A DNA stretch of 38,318 nt from a virus, in IMG/VR virus record IMGVR_UViG_3300027996_001587, positions 1 through 38,318 of that record; one strand, written 5' to 3'. The notes below the pieces were generated by a model. The model was given only the letters and a program-made list of their open reading frames with translations. It ran no database searches and had not been told where the DNA came from. Numbering within the stretch: position 1 is the stretch's first letter; each line of letters begins with the position of its first letter. The position numbers and the translations under genes are program-made. Positions 4,085 to 35,932 of this stretch are shown piece after piece.

Positions 4085-4090
4085 TTATAA

Positions 4091-4121
4091 AGGAGACCCT
4101 TAAATCGGGTCTCCTTTTTTT
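4091..4121 (+). terminator. Rho-independent terminator
   Basis: A perfect 9-bp stem, AGGAGACCC (4091-4099) with GGGTCTCCT (4107-4115), has a 7-nt loop and is followed by a T-tract. It separates the 2584-4084 group from the next late unit. Confidence 0.92.
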
Positions 4122-4128
4122 ATAAATA
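4121..4128 (+). promoter_or_regulatory. T4-like late promoter TATAAATA
   Basis: There is an exact match to the T4 late promoter core, starting at the last T of the terminator tract and 35 nt before the ATG at 4163. It indicates sigma-gp55-type late transcription of the 4163 gene. Confidence 0.75.
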
Positions 4129-10177: not shown

Positions 10178-10256
10178 TGAGTTTAGAAAAATATGGGAAG
10201 AGATGGATCGTATTGAACCATTGACTCCTATCATAGTAAGGAATGAGAAGGGTTAA
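10140..10256 (+). CDS. Tiny acidic protein overlapping nrdB 3' end, 38 aa
   Basis: An ATG at 10140, inside nrdB in another frame, opens a 38-codon frame (MSKKTPSQDS...RNEKG) ending at the TAA at 10254-10256, just at the terminator stem. The overlap layout and the exact fit between the nrdB stop and the terminator suggest a real small gene. Composition is polar and helical (FDEFRKIWEEMDRI). It is not long enough for a domain call. Confidence 0.5.
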   Translation: MSKKTPSQDSNFDEFRKIWEEMDRIEPLTPIIVRNEKG

Positions 10257-10271
10257 CGCCCTTCTTTTTTT
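10246..10271 (+). terminator. Rho-independent terminator after nrdB unit
   Basis: The stem AGAAGGG (10246-10252)/CCCTTCT (10259-10265) has loop TTAACG and is followed by a T-tract. The TAA of the 38-aa ORF lies in the loop region. Confidence 0.88.
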
Positions 10272-10279
10272 TATAAATA
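10272..10279 (+). promoter_or_regulatory. T4-like late promoter TATAAATA
   Basis: A consensus late core directly follows the T-tract and lies 29 nt before the ATG at 10308. It is the same terminator/late-promoter arrangement as at 4091-4128. Confidence 0.75.
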
Positions 10280-10307: not shown

Positions 10308-11687
10308 ATGCAGCCCTCTAATCAATTAAAAGGACTAGTTGAGTCATATAATTCGGTATATGCCAACAGACAGGAACTCGAAGAAGCAAAGGTAATTGCC
10401 GAGACTGTCATCAACTCTGTAGGTGTTTGCATGGTTGAGCAGGGTTATAATGAGTCCGACGTAAAAGAATTCTTTAAAACATCATCAATCGCTAAAATTC
10501 GTGACGTATTTGAAGAGTCACTTCAAAGTGAAGGTGTTCAAAAACATTTGAACCAAGAAACAAATCTATTTGAAACTCATCTAAGATATATTCCTGGTGC
10601 CATGGCAACCAGAATTAAGAATGAGTCTCCAGAGGTTTTTAGTAGACTTACTCTTTGTATCAGTGAAGCATGTCTTGACGAAGCCGAGAATGGCATGTTC
10701 GGTCTCGCAAGAATGGCTGGACAAATCAAAAGAGCTGGCGCAAAGATGTTCGGTAACGCATCACAAAGAAATTCTGCTGTAAGTTACGAGAAGTCTTATG
10801 ATGATATTAATCAGCGCAGAGGGCAAGGCATTGGTACTAGAAAAACTGTAACCAAAGGTGAGATTGACGCAGAAACCGCTGGTCGCCGTAGGGCAGATCC
10901 AAACTACAAGCCTGGTCAAGGTGTTGATAGTGGATCCAAAACTAAGGTAGAACCTAAGGCATCAACAACTAAAGCAGAACCTAAGTCTAGAATCGATACT
11001 ACTATAACAAAACCACAAAAACCTGCTGCAGCTGCAAAACCTGCAAAACCTACACTTACTGCGAAACAAACTGCAAGTAACGCCGAGTATGATCGACTAA
11101 GAAAGTCTGATCCTGCTGCTGCTAAGAAGTTTGGCATGGCTGCATCCAAGTCCAACAAGCCTAAAACTCCTAATCCTTTGATGTCTTCTCCTGCATCAAA
11201 GGCACCTTCTGGAAGAACTGCACTCAAGTCAAGTCGTTTGAGTGCTGCATTGGATGGAGTTAAGAAGGTCAAGAAGGAGTCCAGTGAACTAGACCTAGTT
11301 CTTCAGCACCTCGTCTCTGAGGGCATTGCAGACTCCCTACAAGGCGCTCTAGTCATGGTTGAGGGAATGAGTGATCAGTTCATCAACAGCATCATTGAGC
11401 AGGCTCAGATGGGTTCTGCGATGGTTGAATTCCTACTTCAGAACGGCGAAGCTGAAACTGTTGAGGAAGCACAATACATCATCTCCGAGTTAGACGAAGA
11501 GAACATTGATCTTCTTATTCAGAGTATTACTGAAGGTCCTCAAGCTTTCCCTTTTAAAAAGGTTGAAAAGAAGATGGACAAGTTGCGTCCTGGTGCTAGT
11601 GCCAAAAATATTGACCGAACGTCTACTAGATTCAACGCACTTGGTGCAGCGAGATCAGCAGCACAGCGTCGTGAAGGAGGGGTCTAA
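10308..11687 (+). CDS. Putative virion-associated protein, Ala/Lys/Pro-rich linker, 459 aa
   Basis: Three parts are visible. Residues 1-140 are a helical acidic domain (QELEEAKVIAETVINSVG). Residues about 150-330 are a low-complexity basic linker with repeats such as KVEPKA, KAEPKS, KPAAAAKPAKP and DPAAAKK. Residues about 330-459 are an acidic helical domain (IADSLQGALVMVEG, EEAQYIISELDEE) ending in a basic tail. Transcription from a late promoter and this composition match large internal virion proteins of cyanomyoviruses, like the 2584-3840 gene. The linker may be disordered. There is no enzymatic motif. Confidence 0.75.
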   Translation: MQPSNQLKGLVESYNSVYANRQELEEAKVIAETVINSVGVCMVEQGYNESDVKEFFKTSSIAKIRDVFEESLQSEGVQKHLNQETNLFETHLRYIPGAMATRIKNESPEVFSRLTLCISEACLDEAENGMFGLARMAGQIKRAGAKMFGNASQRNSAVSYEKSYDDINQRRGQGIGTRKTVTKGEIDAETAGRRRADPNYKPGQGVDSGSKTKVEPKASTTKAEPKSRIDTTITKPQKPAAAAKPAKPTLTAKQTASNAEYDRLRKSDPAAAKKFGMAASKSNKPKTPNPLMSSPASKAPSGRTALKSSRLSAALDGVKKVKKESSELDLVLQHLVSEGIADSLQGALVMVEGMSDQFINSIIEQAQMGSAMVEFLLQNGEAETVEEAQYIISELDEENIDLLIQSITEGPQAFPFKKVEKKMDKLRPGASAKNIDRTSTRFNALGAARSAAQRREGGV

Positions 11688-11706
11688 GACATTTCTTAAC
11701 ATTCTG

Positions 11707-11736
11707 AAGGGGGCCTTGACAGGTCCCCTTTTTTTA
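11707..11736 (+). terminator. Terminator whose loop carries a -35 box
   Basis: The stem AAGGGGGCC (11707-11715)/GGTCCCCTT (11722-11730), with one G-U pair, has the loop TTGACA and is followed by six T's. It ends the late 10308 transcript, and its loop is itself the -35 of the next promoter. Confidence 0.88.
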
Positions 11737-11744
11737 TGTACAAT
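11716..11744 (+). promoter_or_regulatory. Sigma70-type promoter TTGACA-N17-TACAAT
   Basis: The -35 TTGACA (11716-11721) is the terminator loop and the -10 TACAAT (11739-11744) follows the T-tract at exactly 17 nt. It should drive the 11768 gene with the host RNA polymerase (early or middle expression). Confidence 0.8.
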
Positions 11745-11767: not shown

Positions 11768-11932
11768 ATGAACAAAGCTAAACTTAAAGTATTAGTAATG
11801 GCTATCAAAGAGATTATTGAAGAACTTGAGTCTGAGGTTTATTCAGATACAGAAGCATATACGGCACCAGTCGAAGGGATGGTTGGTGATTATGATGAAA
11901 TATTTGATGACGATGATGGTTATCCAGACTAA
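11768..11932 (+). CDS. Small acidic hypothetical protein, 54 aa
   Basis: The ATG at 11768 lies behind AGAGGG and 24 nt after a strong sigma70-type -10, so expression is well supported. The 54-residue product has an N-terminal basic/hydrophobic helix (NKAKLKVLVMAIKEIIEEL) and a very acidic C-terminus (DEIFDDDDGYPD). Such acidic early phage peptides often bind host factors, but nothing specific can be claimed. Confidence 0.65.
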   Translation: MNKAKLKVLVMAIKEIIEELESEVYSDTEAYTAPVEGMVGDYDEIFDDDDGYPD

Positions 11933-13713: not shown

Positions 13714-13919
13714 TGGGTGATTTAAGTAAGTATACTTTTGGAGGACTTGACAGAGAACCAGCTAATCTGCTAAGATTAATAAGTGAACTTGAGGGGTCAT
13801 ATCAACTCCTCAAGTACATGGGGTTCCAAGAAGATATGGACACCATCAATGAAATGAAAAAGAGGTACTACAAACTCTATTTCAAACTCAACAAAGAGTT
13901 AACAAACAAGGGCAAGTAG
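13713..13919 (+). CDS. Small helical hypothetical protein, 68 aa
   Basis: The TAATG overlap with the upstream gene fixes the start. The product is helical and basic at its C-terminus (EMKKRYYKLYFKLNKELTNKGK). The stop codon TAG at 13917-13919 is also nucleotides 8-10 of the following tRNA-Arg, so the gene and tRNA overlap by 10 nt. Function is unknown. Confidence 0.65.
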   Translation: MGDLSKYTFGGLDREPANLLRLISELEGSYQLLKYMGFQEDMDTINEMKKRYYKLYFKLNKELTNKGK

Positions 13920-13983
13920 CTCAGTGGAATAGAGCAAGGCACTTCTAATGCCTCGGTCGGGGGTTCGAGTCCCTCCTTGCCCG
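13910..13983 (+). tRNA. tRNA-Arg (anticodon TCT)
   Basis: A cloverleaf can be drawn: acceptor GGGCAAG/CTTGCCC with discriminator G, D-stem GCTC/GAGC, anticodon stem AGGCA/TGCCT with loop CTTCTAA giving anticodon TCT, and T-loop TTCGAGT. CCA is not encoded. It decodes AGA, a common codon in these AT-rich genes. Confidence 0.95.
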
Positions 13984-13985
13984 TT

Positions 13986-14028
13986 GGGGGAGTATATAAA
14001 AAGATCTTCTCTATGCAGAAGCGCCCCC
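13986..14028 (+). other. Hairpin between tRNA genes
   Basis: GGGGG (13986-13990) can pair with CCCCC (14024-14028), and inside it CTTCT/AGAAG (14006-14021) forms a second stem. No T-tract follows. It may be a processing signal or the remains of a tRNA, but no cloverleaf can be drawn. Confidence 0.4.
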
Positions 14029-14034
14029 TTTCAA

Positions 14035-14108
14035 TCCCCTGTAGCTCAATCAGGCAGAGCGCCAAACTGTTAATTTGGATGTTACTGGTTCGATTCCAGT
14101 CGGGGGAG
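14035..14108 (+). tRNA. tRNA-Asn (anticodon GTT)
   Basis: Acceptor TCCCCTG/CGGGGGA with discriminator G, anticodon stem CCAAA/TTTGG around CTGTTAA (anticodon GTT), and T-loop TTCGATT. CCA is not encoded. Confidence 0.95.
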
Positions 14109-14111
14109 TAT

Positions 14112-14182
14112 GCGGGATTAGTTTAGAGGCAAAACTAAAGGTTTCCAACCTTTCGTCACCAGTTCGATTCTGGTATTCCGCT
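14112..14182 (+). tRNA. tRNA-Gly (anticodon TCC)
   Basis: Acceptor GCGGGAT/ATTCCGC (one G-U) with discriminator T, anticodon stem AAAGG/CCTTT around TTTCCAA (anticodon TCC), and T-loop TTCGATT. It reads GGA, frequent in this genome. It lies only 3 nt after tRNA-Asn. Confidence 0.93.
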
Positions 14183-15676: not shown

Positions 15677-15915
15677 TGAAAGTTCTTCTAGAACGCTTTC
15701 CTTATCGTTATGTTGAATGTGGTACGTTGGAAATCAACGATATGCCAGACTATCGCATTCAAAAAGCAGACAGTTGGACTAAACGTTATAGTGACATGTA
15801 TCTTTGTGACAATCAAATGCAACTTATGACTGCAATGGAAGATTTTGAATACACTAAATGGCTTGATCCTGCTGGTGTACCTAACTACGTAAGAGATATT
15901 GTAAGACGTGATTGA
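15676..15915 (+). CDS. Small hypothetical protein, 79 aa
   Basis: The ATG at 15676 overlaps the previous TGA (TGATG) and lies behind AGAGG; a GTG three bases earlier would add one residue. Composition is Met-, Tyr- and Asp-rich (YRYVECGTLEINDMPDYRI, RYSDMYLCDNQMQLMTAMED). The C-terminus has NYVRDIVRRD. No motif is recognised. Its last 8 nt overlap the next gene. Confidence 0.6.
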   Translation: MKVLLERFPYRYVECGTLEINDMPDYRIQKADSWTKRYSDMYLCDNQMQLMTAMEDFEYTKWLDPAGVPNYVRDIVRRD

Positions 15916-16477
15916 AACTTTTAAACCACCATTTATTTTTTGGACAGAGATTCCAAATCACAAACAAATAAAAGAAAAGTATTTACCTCAAATCAAAAAA
16001 AGTTTTGAGGAAAATAAAGAATCTATGGTAGTTTCTCGATGGAACTGTGAAGATTCTTATTCTTCTATTGATGTTTCAACTCCTTTTCTTAGAGAAACCG
16101 AGTTTGCAGACTCTGTTATTTGGGATCCTTTGGATCAAATGCTTTCCGAGGTTGATATCTGCCAATATCCCATAGAAAGTGAATTGTCAAATATATGGTT
16201 TAATTATTACGTCAAGAGTGGATATCAAGAAGTCCATATTCATGATGGAGCTAACTTTCCATCTTTTTCTGGAATTTATTTGATGGACGTTAATGAACCA
16301 AATACAACAGGTTTTATTGTGATGGATCAAATACATTATCTAAATTCTACAATTTTAACAAAAGATATTAAAGAAGGTAGTGTAGTACTATTTCCCTCAA
16401 ATTTACCTCATTATGTCAATCCAGTAAAAGATAATAGACATACAGTTTCATTTAATATTATATCAAAATTTAAATAA
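15908..16477 (+). CDS. 2OG-Fe(II) oxygenase-like protein, 189 aa
   Basis: The iron-binding H-x-D is in QEVHIHDGANFPSF, followed by SGIYLMDV and TGFIVMD strands; the distal His is in FPSNLPHYV and the 2OG-contact Arg in NRHTVSFNII. This is the double-stranded beta-helix core in its usual order. The start is GTG (15908), 8 nt inside the previous gene. Substrate unknown; it lies just before the glycan cluster, but the structured gap after it suggests a separate transcript. Confidence 0.75.
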   Translation: MIETFKPPFIFWTEIPNHKQIKEKYLPQIKKSFEENKESMVVSRWNCEDSYSSIDVSTPFLRETEFADSVIWDPLDQMLSEVDICQYPIESELSNIWFNYYVKSGYQEVHIHDGANFPSFSGIYLMDVNEPNTTGFIVMDQIHYLNSTILTKDIKEGSVVLFPSNLPHYVNPVKDNRHTVSFNIISKFK

Positions 16478-16483
16478 TATATT

Positions 16484-16518
16484 TGACCCCGTTGGTAAGG
16501 GTCACAAAACATGCCAAC
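16484..16518 (+). other. Possible RNA pseudoknot
   Basis: TGACCC (16484-16489) pairs with GGGTCA (16499-16504). The loop holds GTTGG (16491-16495), which can pair with CCAAC (16514-16518), giving an H-type pseudoknot. It lies in the gap after the oxygenase gene and before a terminator. It could be a 3'-end structure or a small RNA. Confidence 0.4.
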
Positions 16519-16534
16519 TGGCGAGCCTGATCCC

Positions 16535-16565
16535 AAAAAGACCCTTGACAATGAGGGTCTTTTTT
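16535..16565 (+). terminator. Terminator whose loop carries a -35 box
   Basis: The stem AAAAAGACCCT/AGGGTCTTTTT (16535-16545 with 16554-16564) runs straight into the T-tract. The TTGACA at 16545-16550 sits at the stem top and loop. It ends the 15461-16477 transcript. Confidence 0.85.
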
Positions 16566-16573
16566 AGTATGAT
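16545..16573 (+). promoter_or_regulatory. Sigma70-type promoter TTGACA-N17-TATGAT driving the glycan cluster
   Basis: The -35 is in the terminator loop and the -10 TATGAT (16568-16573) follows the T-tract after exactly 17 nt. It is the only strong promoter I see before the 13-kb cluster starting at 16600. AAGGA (about 16581) is the ribosome-binding site. Confidence 0.8.
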
Positions 16574-16599: not shown

Positions 16600-17655
16600 A
16601 TGTCCGAATATAAAAAAACAGCATTGGTCCTAGGTGCTGGTGGATTTATCGGGAGTCATATGGTAAAGCGCCTTCGAGCAGAAGGCTATTGGGTGCGTGG
16701 TGTTGATCTGAAGAGACCAGAATATTCAGACACTGAAGCAAACGAGTTTATTCAAGGTGACTTGCGTGATAGAAGTTTTGTTCGTCGTTGTATTCGTACC
16801 ACTGGTATCAATGGTGGGTTCTATGCACAGATTGTAGATAAGTTTCTGTCACCTTTTGATGAGATCTATCAGTTTGCTGCTGATATGGGTGGTGCAGGAT
16901 TCGTATTCACTGGTGAGAATGATGCAGATATCATGCACAACTCAGTGTCTATCAATCTGAATGTACTTGAAGAACAACATCTTCTTAATCTGGATAAGGA
17001 TACAAACAAGACTAAAATTTTCTATTCTGGTTCTGCTTGCATGTATCCAGAGCACAATCAATTAGACCCTGATAACCCCGATTGCCGTGAAGAATCTGCG
17101 TACCCTGCTGCTCCTGATTCAGAGTACGGCTGGGAAAAACTCTTTAGTGAAAGACTTTACTTTGCTTACAACCGTAATCATGGCATTCCTGTTCGGGTTG
17201 CTCGCTATCACAACATCTTTGGCCCCGAAGGAACCTGGGACGGTGGAAGAGAGAAGGCACCAGCTGCAATCAGCCGTAAAGTCGCTTACCTCCCAGAGGT
17301 CGGTGGAGCTATCGAGGTGTGGGGAGATGGCCTACAAACTCGTTCCTTCCTGTACATTGACGAATGCATTGAAGCGACTAGACGATTGATGGACAGTGAC
17401 TTTATGGGACCAGTTAATATTGGTTCTGAAGAGATGGTCACTATTAACGAATTGGTTGAGATTGCTGCTAAAGTTTCTGGTAAGGTTGTTAGGAAGAAGT
17501 ATAAACTGGATGCACCTCAGGGTGTACGTGGACGCAATTCTAATAATGATCTAATTAGTGAGAAACTTGGTTGGGATTATTCACAGTCACTAGAAGAAGG
17601 TATTCGCAAAACATATGAATGGATTGGGGTTCAAATTGAAAATGAAAAATTTTAA
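16600..17655 (+). CDS. GDP-mannose 3,5-epimerase-like extended SDR
   Basis: An extended short-chain dehydrogenase, 351 residues. The Rossmann motif is GAGGFIG (12-18). The segment ADMGGAGF and the active-site triad positions S145/C147 (SGSACMYP) and Y176-x3-K180 (YGWEK) fit GDP-mannose 3,5-epimerase, as do RYHNIFGP, GTWDGGREKAPAA, WGDGLQTRSF and PQGVRGRNSNN. That enzyme converts GDP-D-mannose to GDP-L-galactose or GDP-L-gulose. It is the first gene of the glycan cluster, behind its own promoter, and would provide an unusual L-sugar donor for the downstream glycosyltransferases. Family fit is very good; exact product is inferred. Confidence 0.9.
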   Translation: MSEYKKTALVLGAGGFIGSHMVKRLRAEGYWVRGVDLKRPEYSDTEANEFIQGDLRDRSFVRRCIRTTGINGGFYAQIVDKFLSPFDEIYQFAADMGGAGFVFTGENDADIMHNSVSINLNVLEEQHLLNLDKDTNKTKIFYSGSACMYPEHNQLDPDNPDCREESAYPAAPDSEYGWEKLFSERLYFAYNRNHGIPVRVARYHNIFGPEGTWDGGREKAPAAISRKVAYLPEVGGAIEVWGDGLQTRSFLYIDECIEATRRLMDSDFMGPVNIGSEEMVTINELVEIAAKVSGKVVRKKYKLDAPQGVRGRNSNNDLISEKLGWDYSQSLEEGIRKTYEWIGVQIENEKF

Positions 17656-35199: not shown

Positions 35200-35694
35200 C
35201 TATTTAATATAGATTTCAGATACAAATTGGCCAGTAGCACTTGTACCTGCTCCACCTGCAGTCAATGACATGACACCAGCAGAATCGATAGAACCAGCCA
35301 AAGTACCAGCAACACCACCAGAAGTTGTCGTGACATTTCCAAACGCAGGTAAGGAAGGGACCACACCACTACTAACGGATGTTCCTGCTGTGTTGACTGC
35401 ATCTCCGTAGACGAATCCTTCTGAAAAGGAAAATGCACTCCCTGCAGTAGTCACAGAGTATGCGCCTTGAATCTGAGTAGCAGCAGCACTGGTGCTACTA
35501 GGAGCTGTGATTCCACCAAAGGTTCCAGCAGTAATATTATTGCCACTTACTGCATATGTGGATCCCATTCTACTTGCCTGTGATGCAGCAGAATCAACTG
35601 TAAGTTGAACAGATGTAGACATTCTTGATGTAATATCGGCATGTGCGGGTGCCGTCAACATTAACATTCCCATGAGCACTAATGTTCTCTTCAT
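35200..35694 (-). CDS. Exported Ser/Thr/Ala-rich beta protein, 164 aa
   Basis: A signal peptide (MKRTLVLMGMLMLTAPAHA) precedes a low-charge protein made of small residues: SRMSTSVQLTVDSAASQAS, SGNNITAGTFGG, SSTSAAATQIQ, GSAFSFSEGFVYGD, MSLTAGGAGTSATGQFVSE. This is typical of extracellular beta-solenoid or fibre-like proteins. It is the first gene of a minus-strand operon divergent from psbA. I recall similar genes beside cyanophage psbA but cannot name a function. Confidence 0.75.
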   Translation of the reverse strand: MKRTLVLMGMLMLTAPAHADITSRMSTSVQLTVDSAASQASRMGSTYAVSGNNITAGTFGGITAPSSTSAAATQIQGAYSVTTAGSAFSFSEGFVYGDAVNTAGTSVSSGVVPSLPAFGNVTTTSGGVAGTLAGSIDSAGVMSLTAGGAGTSATGQFVSEIYIK

Positions 35695-35727: not shown

Positions 35728-35737
35728 GTTGAGCCCC

Positions 35738-35771
35738 TTGACAGGGGCCCCAGGCCGTGTTATTATAAATA
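35738..35771 (+). promoter_or_regulatory. Overlapping sigma70-type and late promoters for psbA
   Basis: TTGACA (35738-35743), 17 nt, then TATTAT (35761-35766). TATAAATA (35764-35771) overlaps that -10. The -35 sits in the loop of GCCCC/GGGGC. psbA may thus be read both early and late. The leader to the ATG is about 160 nt. Confidence 0.72.
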
Positions 35772-35780
35772 AGTCAGCAA

Positions 35781-35932
35781 GTTAAGGAACCAACACATTT
35801 CTTAACGCTTCGTAACACTCCTCAAACCAAGACCTATAGGGTGTCTAAACACGTCTTTCATATCCTTGCCTTAGGGTGGCGAGGAAATAGTAAAACCATC
35901 ATTTCCCTGATGATCTTACTTTTTTCAATTCA
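35781..35932 (+). other. Structured psbA leader
   Basis: Stems visible: GTTAAG/CTTAAC (35781-35806), TCCTTGCC/GGCGAGGA (about 35861-35883, one G-U) and CATCA/TGATG just before the start (about 35899-35914). No clear Shine-Dalgarno lies before the ATG, which suggests control of psbA translation at the leader. Confidence 0.45.

Follow-up and report, generated by a model that had tools for sequence, protein, structure and literature searches.

Intrinsic (Rho-independent) terminators consist of a GC-rich hairpin followed by a T-tract and are found 3' of a gene. The sigma-70 early promoters of T4-like phages and Kayvirus have the form TTGACW, 17 nt, TATANT, and an RNA-seq study of Kayvirus 515A1 gives its early promoters as TTGACW-17-TATANT (PMC7698491). 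The two kinds of signal can be close neighbors: at t97/p98 of Kayvirus, according to that article, one transcription unit ends and the next begins within tens of nucleotides. In yeast, both roles have been engineered into single bifunctional terminator-promoter elements (PMC10298055). Moreover, RNA polymerase that is retained after termination reinitiates in vitro and can restart at a nearby promoter, with an efficiency that is expected to depend on the distance between terminator and promoter (PMC6978380).

We examined terminator-promoter arrangements in a T4-like cyanophage. The window, that is, the whole stretch of DNA analysed, is a complete IMG/VR record of 38,318 bases; its closest record in our phage collection is S-T4 (Kyanoviridae, Tamkungvirus), with 82% identity across the parts that align. 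An earlier note on this DNA had described TTGACA at the top of T-tract hairpins, with a -10 box 17 nt away, at 11707-11744 and 16535-16573, and a hairpin with the same loop and spacing and no T-tract at 35734-35766. This anatomy is borne out at all three places (sites 1 to 3, Table 1), where the -35 and -10 hexamers each time match the consensus at 11 of 12 positions, 17 nt apart. The RNA fold has an energy of -19.0 kcal/mol (z -4.0) at site 1 and -15.3 kcal/mol (z -3.9) at site 2, where the TTG of the -35 box is base-paired within the upper stem; the + strand fold at site 3 is unremarkable (z -0.5). The start codons of the next genes lie 24 nt (site 1) and 27 nt (site 2) past the -10 box. Rfam gave no gathering-level match over the hairpins of sites 1 and 2; on this ground, wcaG and other known riboswitches were rejected for site 2, and a GibS match there was dismissed (28 bits; gathering score 115). 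Directly 5' of the site 2 hairpin lies GGCGAGCCTGA (16495-16530), which is found again 5' of epimerase genes across many diverse cyanophages and has no Rfam match. The window also contains a tRNA cluster at 13910-14182, with tRNA-Arg(TCT), tRNA-Asn(GTT) and tRNA-Gly(TCC).

Table 1. Coordinates in the window of the three sites, their neighbors and two terminators that run into late promoter words.
Feature	Coordinates	Strand	Details
Site 1 upstream gene	10308-11687		co-directional
Site 1 terminator hairpin	11706..11731	+	arms 11706-11716/11721-11731, 11-bp stem, loop TGAC, then T-tract
Site 1 sigma-70-type promoter	11716..11744	+	TTGACA 11716-11721, spacing 17, TACAAT 11739-11744
Site 1 downstream small gene	11768-11932		predicted promoter target; phrog_878
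Site 2 upstream gene	15908-16477		co-directional; 2OG-Fe(II) oxygenase
Site 2 terminator hairpin	16536..16563	+	arms 16536-16547/16552-16563, 12-bp stem, loop ACAA, T-tract
Site 2 promoter	16545..16573	+	TTGACA 16545-16550, spacing 17, TATGAT 16568-16573
Site 2 downstream gene	16600-17655		predicted promoter target; nucleotide-sugar epimerase
Site 3 GC palindrome around -35	35733..35748	+	GCCCCT 35733-35738, loop TGAC, AGGGGC 35743-35748; no T-tract
Site 3 promoter	35738..35766	+	TTGACA 35738-35743, spacing 17, TATTAT 35761-35766
PhotoRC-II RNA, psbA leader	35803-35898		RF01717, 72.9 bits; starts 37 nt past site 3 -10; psbA next
Terminator T-tract into T4-type late promoter TATAAATA	4089..4124	+	terminator 4089-4117
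Terminator T-tract into T4-type late promoter TATAAATA	10245..10274	+	terminator 10245-10266

We counted cases in which a hairpin of at least 6 bp encloses TTGACA and a -10 box lies at 17 nt, scoring the T-tract separately. Among the 36 occurrences of TTGACA on both strands of the window, the strongest enclosing hairpins are those of sites 1 to 3, and all three have the -10 box at 17 nt. These 3 hairpin-promoters, 2 of them with a T-tract, compare with means of 0.012 and 0.0017 (maximum 1) in 600 dinucleotide shuffles; the random frequency in shuffled sequence that the earlier note had named as a refutation was thus not seen. The arrangement at sites 1 and 2 is real and not a product of chance. 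The same note had taken the identical 17-nt spacing as an argument against chance. The departure from chance stands, given the shuffles, but 17 nt is also the spacing peak for TTGACA without hairpins and is the ordinary sigma-70 value; the spacing consequently marks the sites as promoters and not as a special class.

The survey was extended to 250 cyanophage loci plus the window (2.9 Mb, mostly cyanomyovirus), in which 639 distinct terminators were predicted; only exact duplicates were removed, and the counts include relatives and are inflated by related loci. UUCG-type words are the most highly enriched in the terminator loops, with CTTGAC/TTGACA next among the most enriched. TTGAC stands at the loop of 60 terminators, of which 56 have a -10 box at exactly 17 nt; applied to the remaining 579, this offset yields 7%. 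When -35 words of at least 5/6 matches are allowed in the loop, a -10 box lies at 17 nt in 73 of the 639 terminators, and no other spacing between 10 and 25 accounts for more than 12. Sixty scrambled hexamers gave an average of 1.3 at 17 nt; TTGCAT loops account for the outlier among them, TAGCAT (20). The loop -35 elements have 40 distinct right-arm 7-mers, indicating that many of the stems are independent. A same-strand stop codon lies within 400 nt upstream of 55 of the 60 elements (median 33 nt), and the predicted transcription start is a median of 20 nt from the start codon; with distances this short, the element occupies the entire intergenic gap. Using a crude gene caller, a hairpin followed by T was found at 40 of 256 codirectional and 8 of 82 divergent promoters. 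With conserved ORFs, a codirectional gene was found upstream of 34 of the 36 assignable elements, and likewise of 169 of 204 plain promoters. Fused elements are a minority, about 9-11% of the predicted cyanophage terminators. A variant occurs in three loci (L353, L537 and L543), in which an inner hairpin CTGG...CCAG with TTGAC is set within an outer GAGGGG/CCCCTC stem, with a T-tract and a -10 box at 17 nt.

Conservation was followed at the level of single sites. S-T4 carries all three sites at corresponding gene boundaries. Its element at L001:21771 is identical to site 1; its site 2 has other loop bases past the hexamer (ATGA vs TCAA), with pairing retained; L001:3243 is an additional hairpin/promoter. 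For orthologs of site 2 we took the sequence 5' of the nucleotide-sugar epimerase gene at about 80 loci, without requiring a hairpin. In 35 of 82 such regions we found a hairpin and T-tract with a loop hexamer 17 nt before the -10 box. The hexamers at that place are TTGACA, TTTACA, TTGTCA, TTGTAA and TTGCAT-like words, several of the last being listed with a two-base shift in register caused by the overlap of TATAAT and TAATAT. At many other epimerase orthologs there is a plain promoter or no recognised one, indicating that the fusion has been gained and lost. Twenty sequences that share the stem register were aligned; they were selected partly for that register, which biases the percentage paired upward. 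In this alignment, 7 of the 12 stem pairs show two-sided changes, and C-G and G-C are swapped 10:10 at columns 16-27. The covariation score is 0.535, compared with 0.25 for shuffles and at most 0.236 with the stem slid. In the hexamer, T17, T18 and A22 are invariant and G19, A20 and C21 are conserved at 90% or more across the 20 sequences. G-U pairs are present on the transcribed strand of the stem. Selection thus appears to preserve the -35 box, the T-tract and the -10 box, the stem letters being free as long as pairing holds.

We then asked how far the element extends. The pattern with a real hairpin is present in most of the large cyanomyovirus contigs tested, and also in S-PM2, P-SSM2, P-SSM4, S-SM2 and Bellamy; in some cyanophages it is missing or rare. 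It is absent from the whole phage records of T4, RB43, PB1, P-SSP7, SPO1, lambda and Syn9, and the matches in KVP40, HTVC008M and Felix O1 are without a proper GC hairpin. A stem-blind scan of IMG/VR returned at least 115 distinct T-tract promoters; among the matches listed, 46 of 115 have an enclosing hairpin, vs 9.9 after the left flanks are swapped. The matches listed come mostly from cyanomyoviruses or more distant T4-like relatives, and three share no protein with these. We compared T-tract promoters in IMG/VR with a set in which the -10 box was shifted by design and no other -10 box stood at 16-18 nt. A hairpin was present in 52 of 140 (37%) of the correctly spaced promoters and in 2 of 40 (5%) of the displaced ones (Fisher p 3e-5). 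A host origin of the element is unsupported: of 206 terminators in 1.41 Mb of cyanobacterial loci, 2 have TTGAC loops and 0 a -10 box at 17 nt, and in 11 cyanobacterial genomes the stem-blind pattern is no more frequent than its reversed control. In the unrelated Staphylococcus phage K (a herellevirus), 5 elements occur among 33 predicted terminators, and in its RefSeq record 8 of 39 depositor-annotated terminators have a -35 box of at least 5/6 matches and a -10 box at 17 nt. RNA-seq of a Kayvirus relative has established TTGACW-17-TATANT as the form of phage K early promoters (PMC7698491). Phage Twort and Listeria phage A511 have at least one element each. We infer separate origins in the cyanophages and in the phage K family.

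The site 3 promoter very likely serves psbA: the PhotoRC-II leader and psbA come next in the window (Table 1), and in dozens of cyanophages a TTGACR-17-TATNAT promoter stands some 200 nt 5' of that gene. Among the psbA promoters listed, most have AAATA after the -10 box. The earlier note had placed one terminator-promoter element of about 40 nt between transcription units. The comparative data support this well for sites 1 and 2 but not for site 3, which is not a terminator, since it has no T-tract and the gene 5' of it (35200-35694) is divergent; in addition, the hairpin is missing from most orthologous psbA promoters. A conserved hairpin in psbA promoters was accordingly rejected, clear cases being confined to loci L022, L024 and L080, the window and S-T4. 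In those three loci the psbA promoter has the full terminator form and lies downstream of co-directional ORFs; the missing T-tract and divergent neighbor at site 3 fit the terminator reading of the element, in these few cases. Two other psbA-bearing contigs (L311 and L315) are labelled as Gammaproteobacteria and Euryarchaeota MAGs, but appear to be cyanophage sequences that were binned wrongly.

The psbA -10 box also overlaps TATAAATA (35764-35771), the T4 late promoter word, so that the host-type and late promoters share bases. Elsewhere in the window, two terminator T-tracts run straight into the same word (Table 1). Of the 639 cyanophage terminators, 23 have an ATAAATA that begins no more than about 14 nt from the stem, where positions 40-110 would predict 2.8; this is a raw comparison, the tails being T-rich and A-rich. 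Judged by these words, terminators in these phages seem to be fused not only with early promoters but with late ones as well.

Taken together, these results suggest that sites 1 and 2 are very probably compact bifunctional terminator-promoter units, at which one RNA would end and the next would start. This reading is based on the T-tract, the close upstream co-directional stop codon, a start codon about 20 nt past the predicted transcription start, compensation in the stem, and recurrence at dozens of loci and in phage K. As RNA, the hairpin and U-tract would act as the intrinsic terminator of the adjoining upstream gene; as double-stranded DNA, the same letters would form a host-type (sigma-70 family) promoter for the gene that follows. 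The -35 box would come from the loop or upper stem and the 17-nt spacer from the descending arm and T-tract, with the -10 box directly after them. With this geometry, a terminating polymerase would sit on the spacer and -10 box of the next promoter, which it could block or to which it could be handed over. That the element is a hand-over device, in which polymerase terminating in the T-tract restarts at the next promoter without leaving the DNA and thereby couples successive phage units, is a possibility that we consider rather unlikely.

Several other explanations of the elements were weighed. T-rich terminator tails could mimic -10 boxes, the association then being one of chance or ascertainment, and some -10-like word does occur shortly past the stem in 64% of the other terminators. 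An equal frequency for scrambled hexamers or shifted spacings was looked for in the 639 terminators and not seen; the exact spacing (56/60 vs 7%), the scrambled hexamers (1.3 vs 73) and the stem covariation leave this explanation with practically no probability. The promoter could be genuine and the hairpin non-terminating, stabilising only the 3' end or 5' start of a transcript. Termination at the elements is predicted from sequence, and in the Kayvirus study late transcription is reported to nearly ignore t97, directly 5' of the early promoter p98 (PMC7698491). Against this, a GC stem with 6-8 T after it has the textbook shape of a terminator and is annotated as such by the depositors of phage K; we regard a non-terminating hairpin as quite improbable.

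The palindrome might instead be a DNA operator, bound by a repressor or activator around the -35 box, with termination incidental. Site 3, a near-perfect GC palindrome at the -35 box with no T-tract and beside a divergent gene, would suit such an operator, but the stems differ between elements even within one genome (40 distinct arms) with no common operator word, the T-tracts are retained, and G-U pairs occur on the transcribed strand, all of which makes this explanation very improbable. Finally, small, short-looped hairpins (5-8 bp) at promoters recall phage N4, in which case a cruciform would be extruded and read by the polymerase. Here, a canonical sigma-70 -35/-10 pair at 17 nt is present instead. 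Sigma binds the -35 box as duplex, which extrusion would destroy; the T-tract would be unexplained, and the conserved N4 loop is missing. An N4-like promoter is thus extremely improbable.

The preferred reading, a bifunctional terminator-promoter unit, implies that large lytic phages of two unrelated families have recurrently packed two opposite signals of transcription into one stretch of ~40 bases; by the comparisons above, the arrangement is widespread in one of these families and also occurs in the other. Separate annotation of promoters and terminators in phage genomes misses such a combined unit. In the open-licence literature searched, no description was found of a -35 box inside a terminator loop. 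The two halves are of known kinds, and their fusion seems to be undescribed in that literature. Compared with other intrinsic terminators, the loop or upper stem is here constrained to the -35 hexamer and not to, for example, UUCG; compared with the T4-like and Kayvirus early promoters, the -35 box and spacer are made from a terminator. At t97/p98 the sharing of bases is undescribed in the accessible part of the Kayvirus article (PMC7698491), whereas here both signals use the same bases. The yeast elements (PMC10298055) are artificial and eukaryotic. Polymerase recycling was seen in vitro with separate units (PMC6978380), whereas here the distance between terminator and promoter would be nearly zero, and both recycling and terminator-to-promoter coupling become testable in natural sequences.
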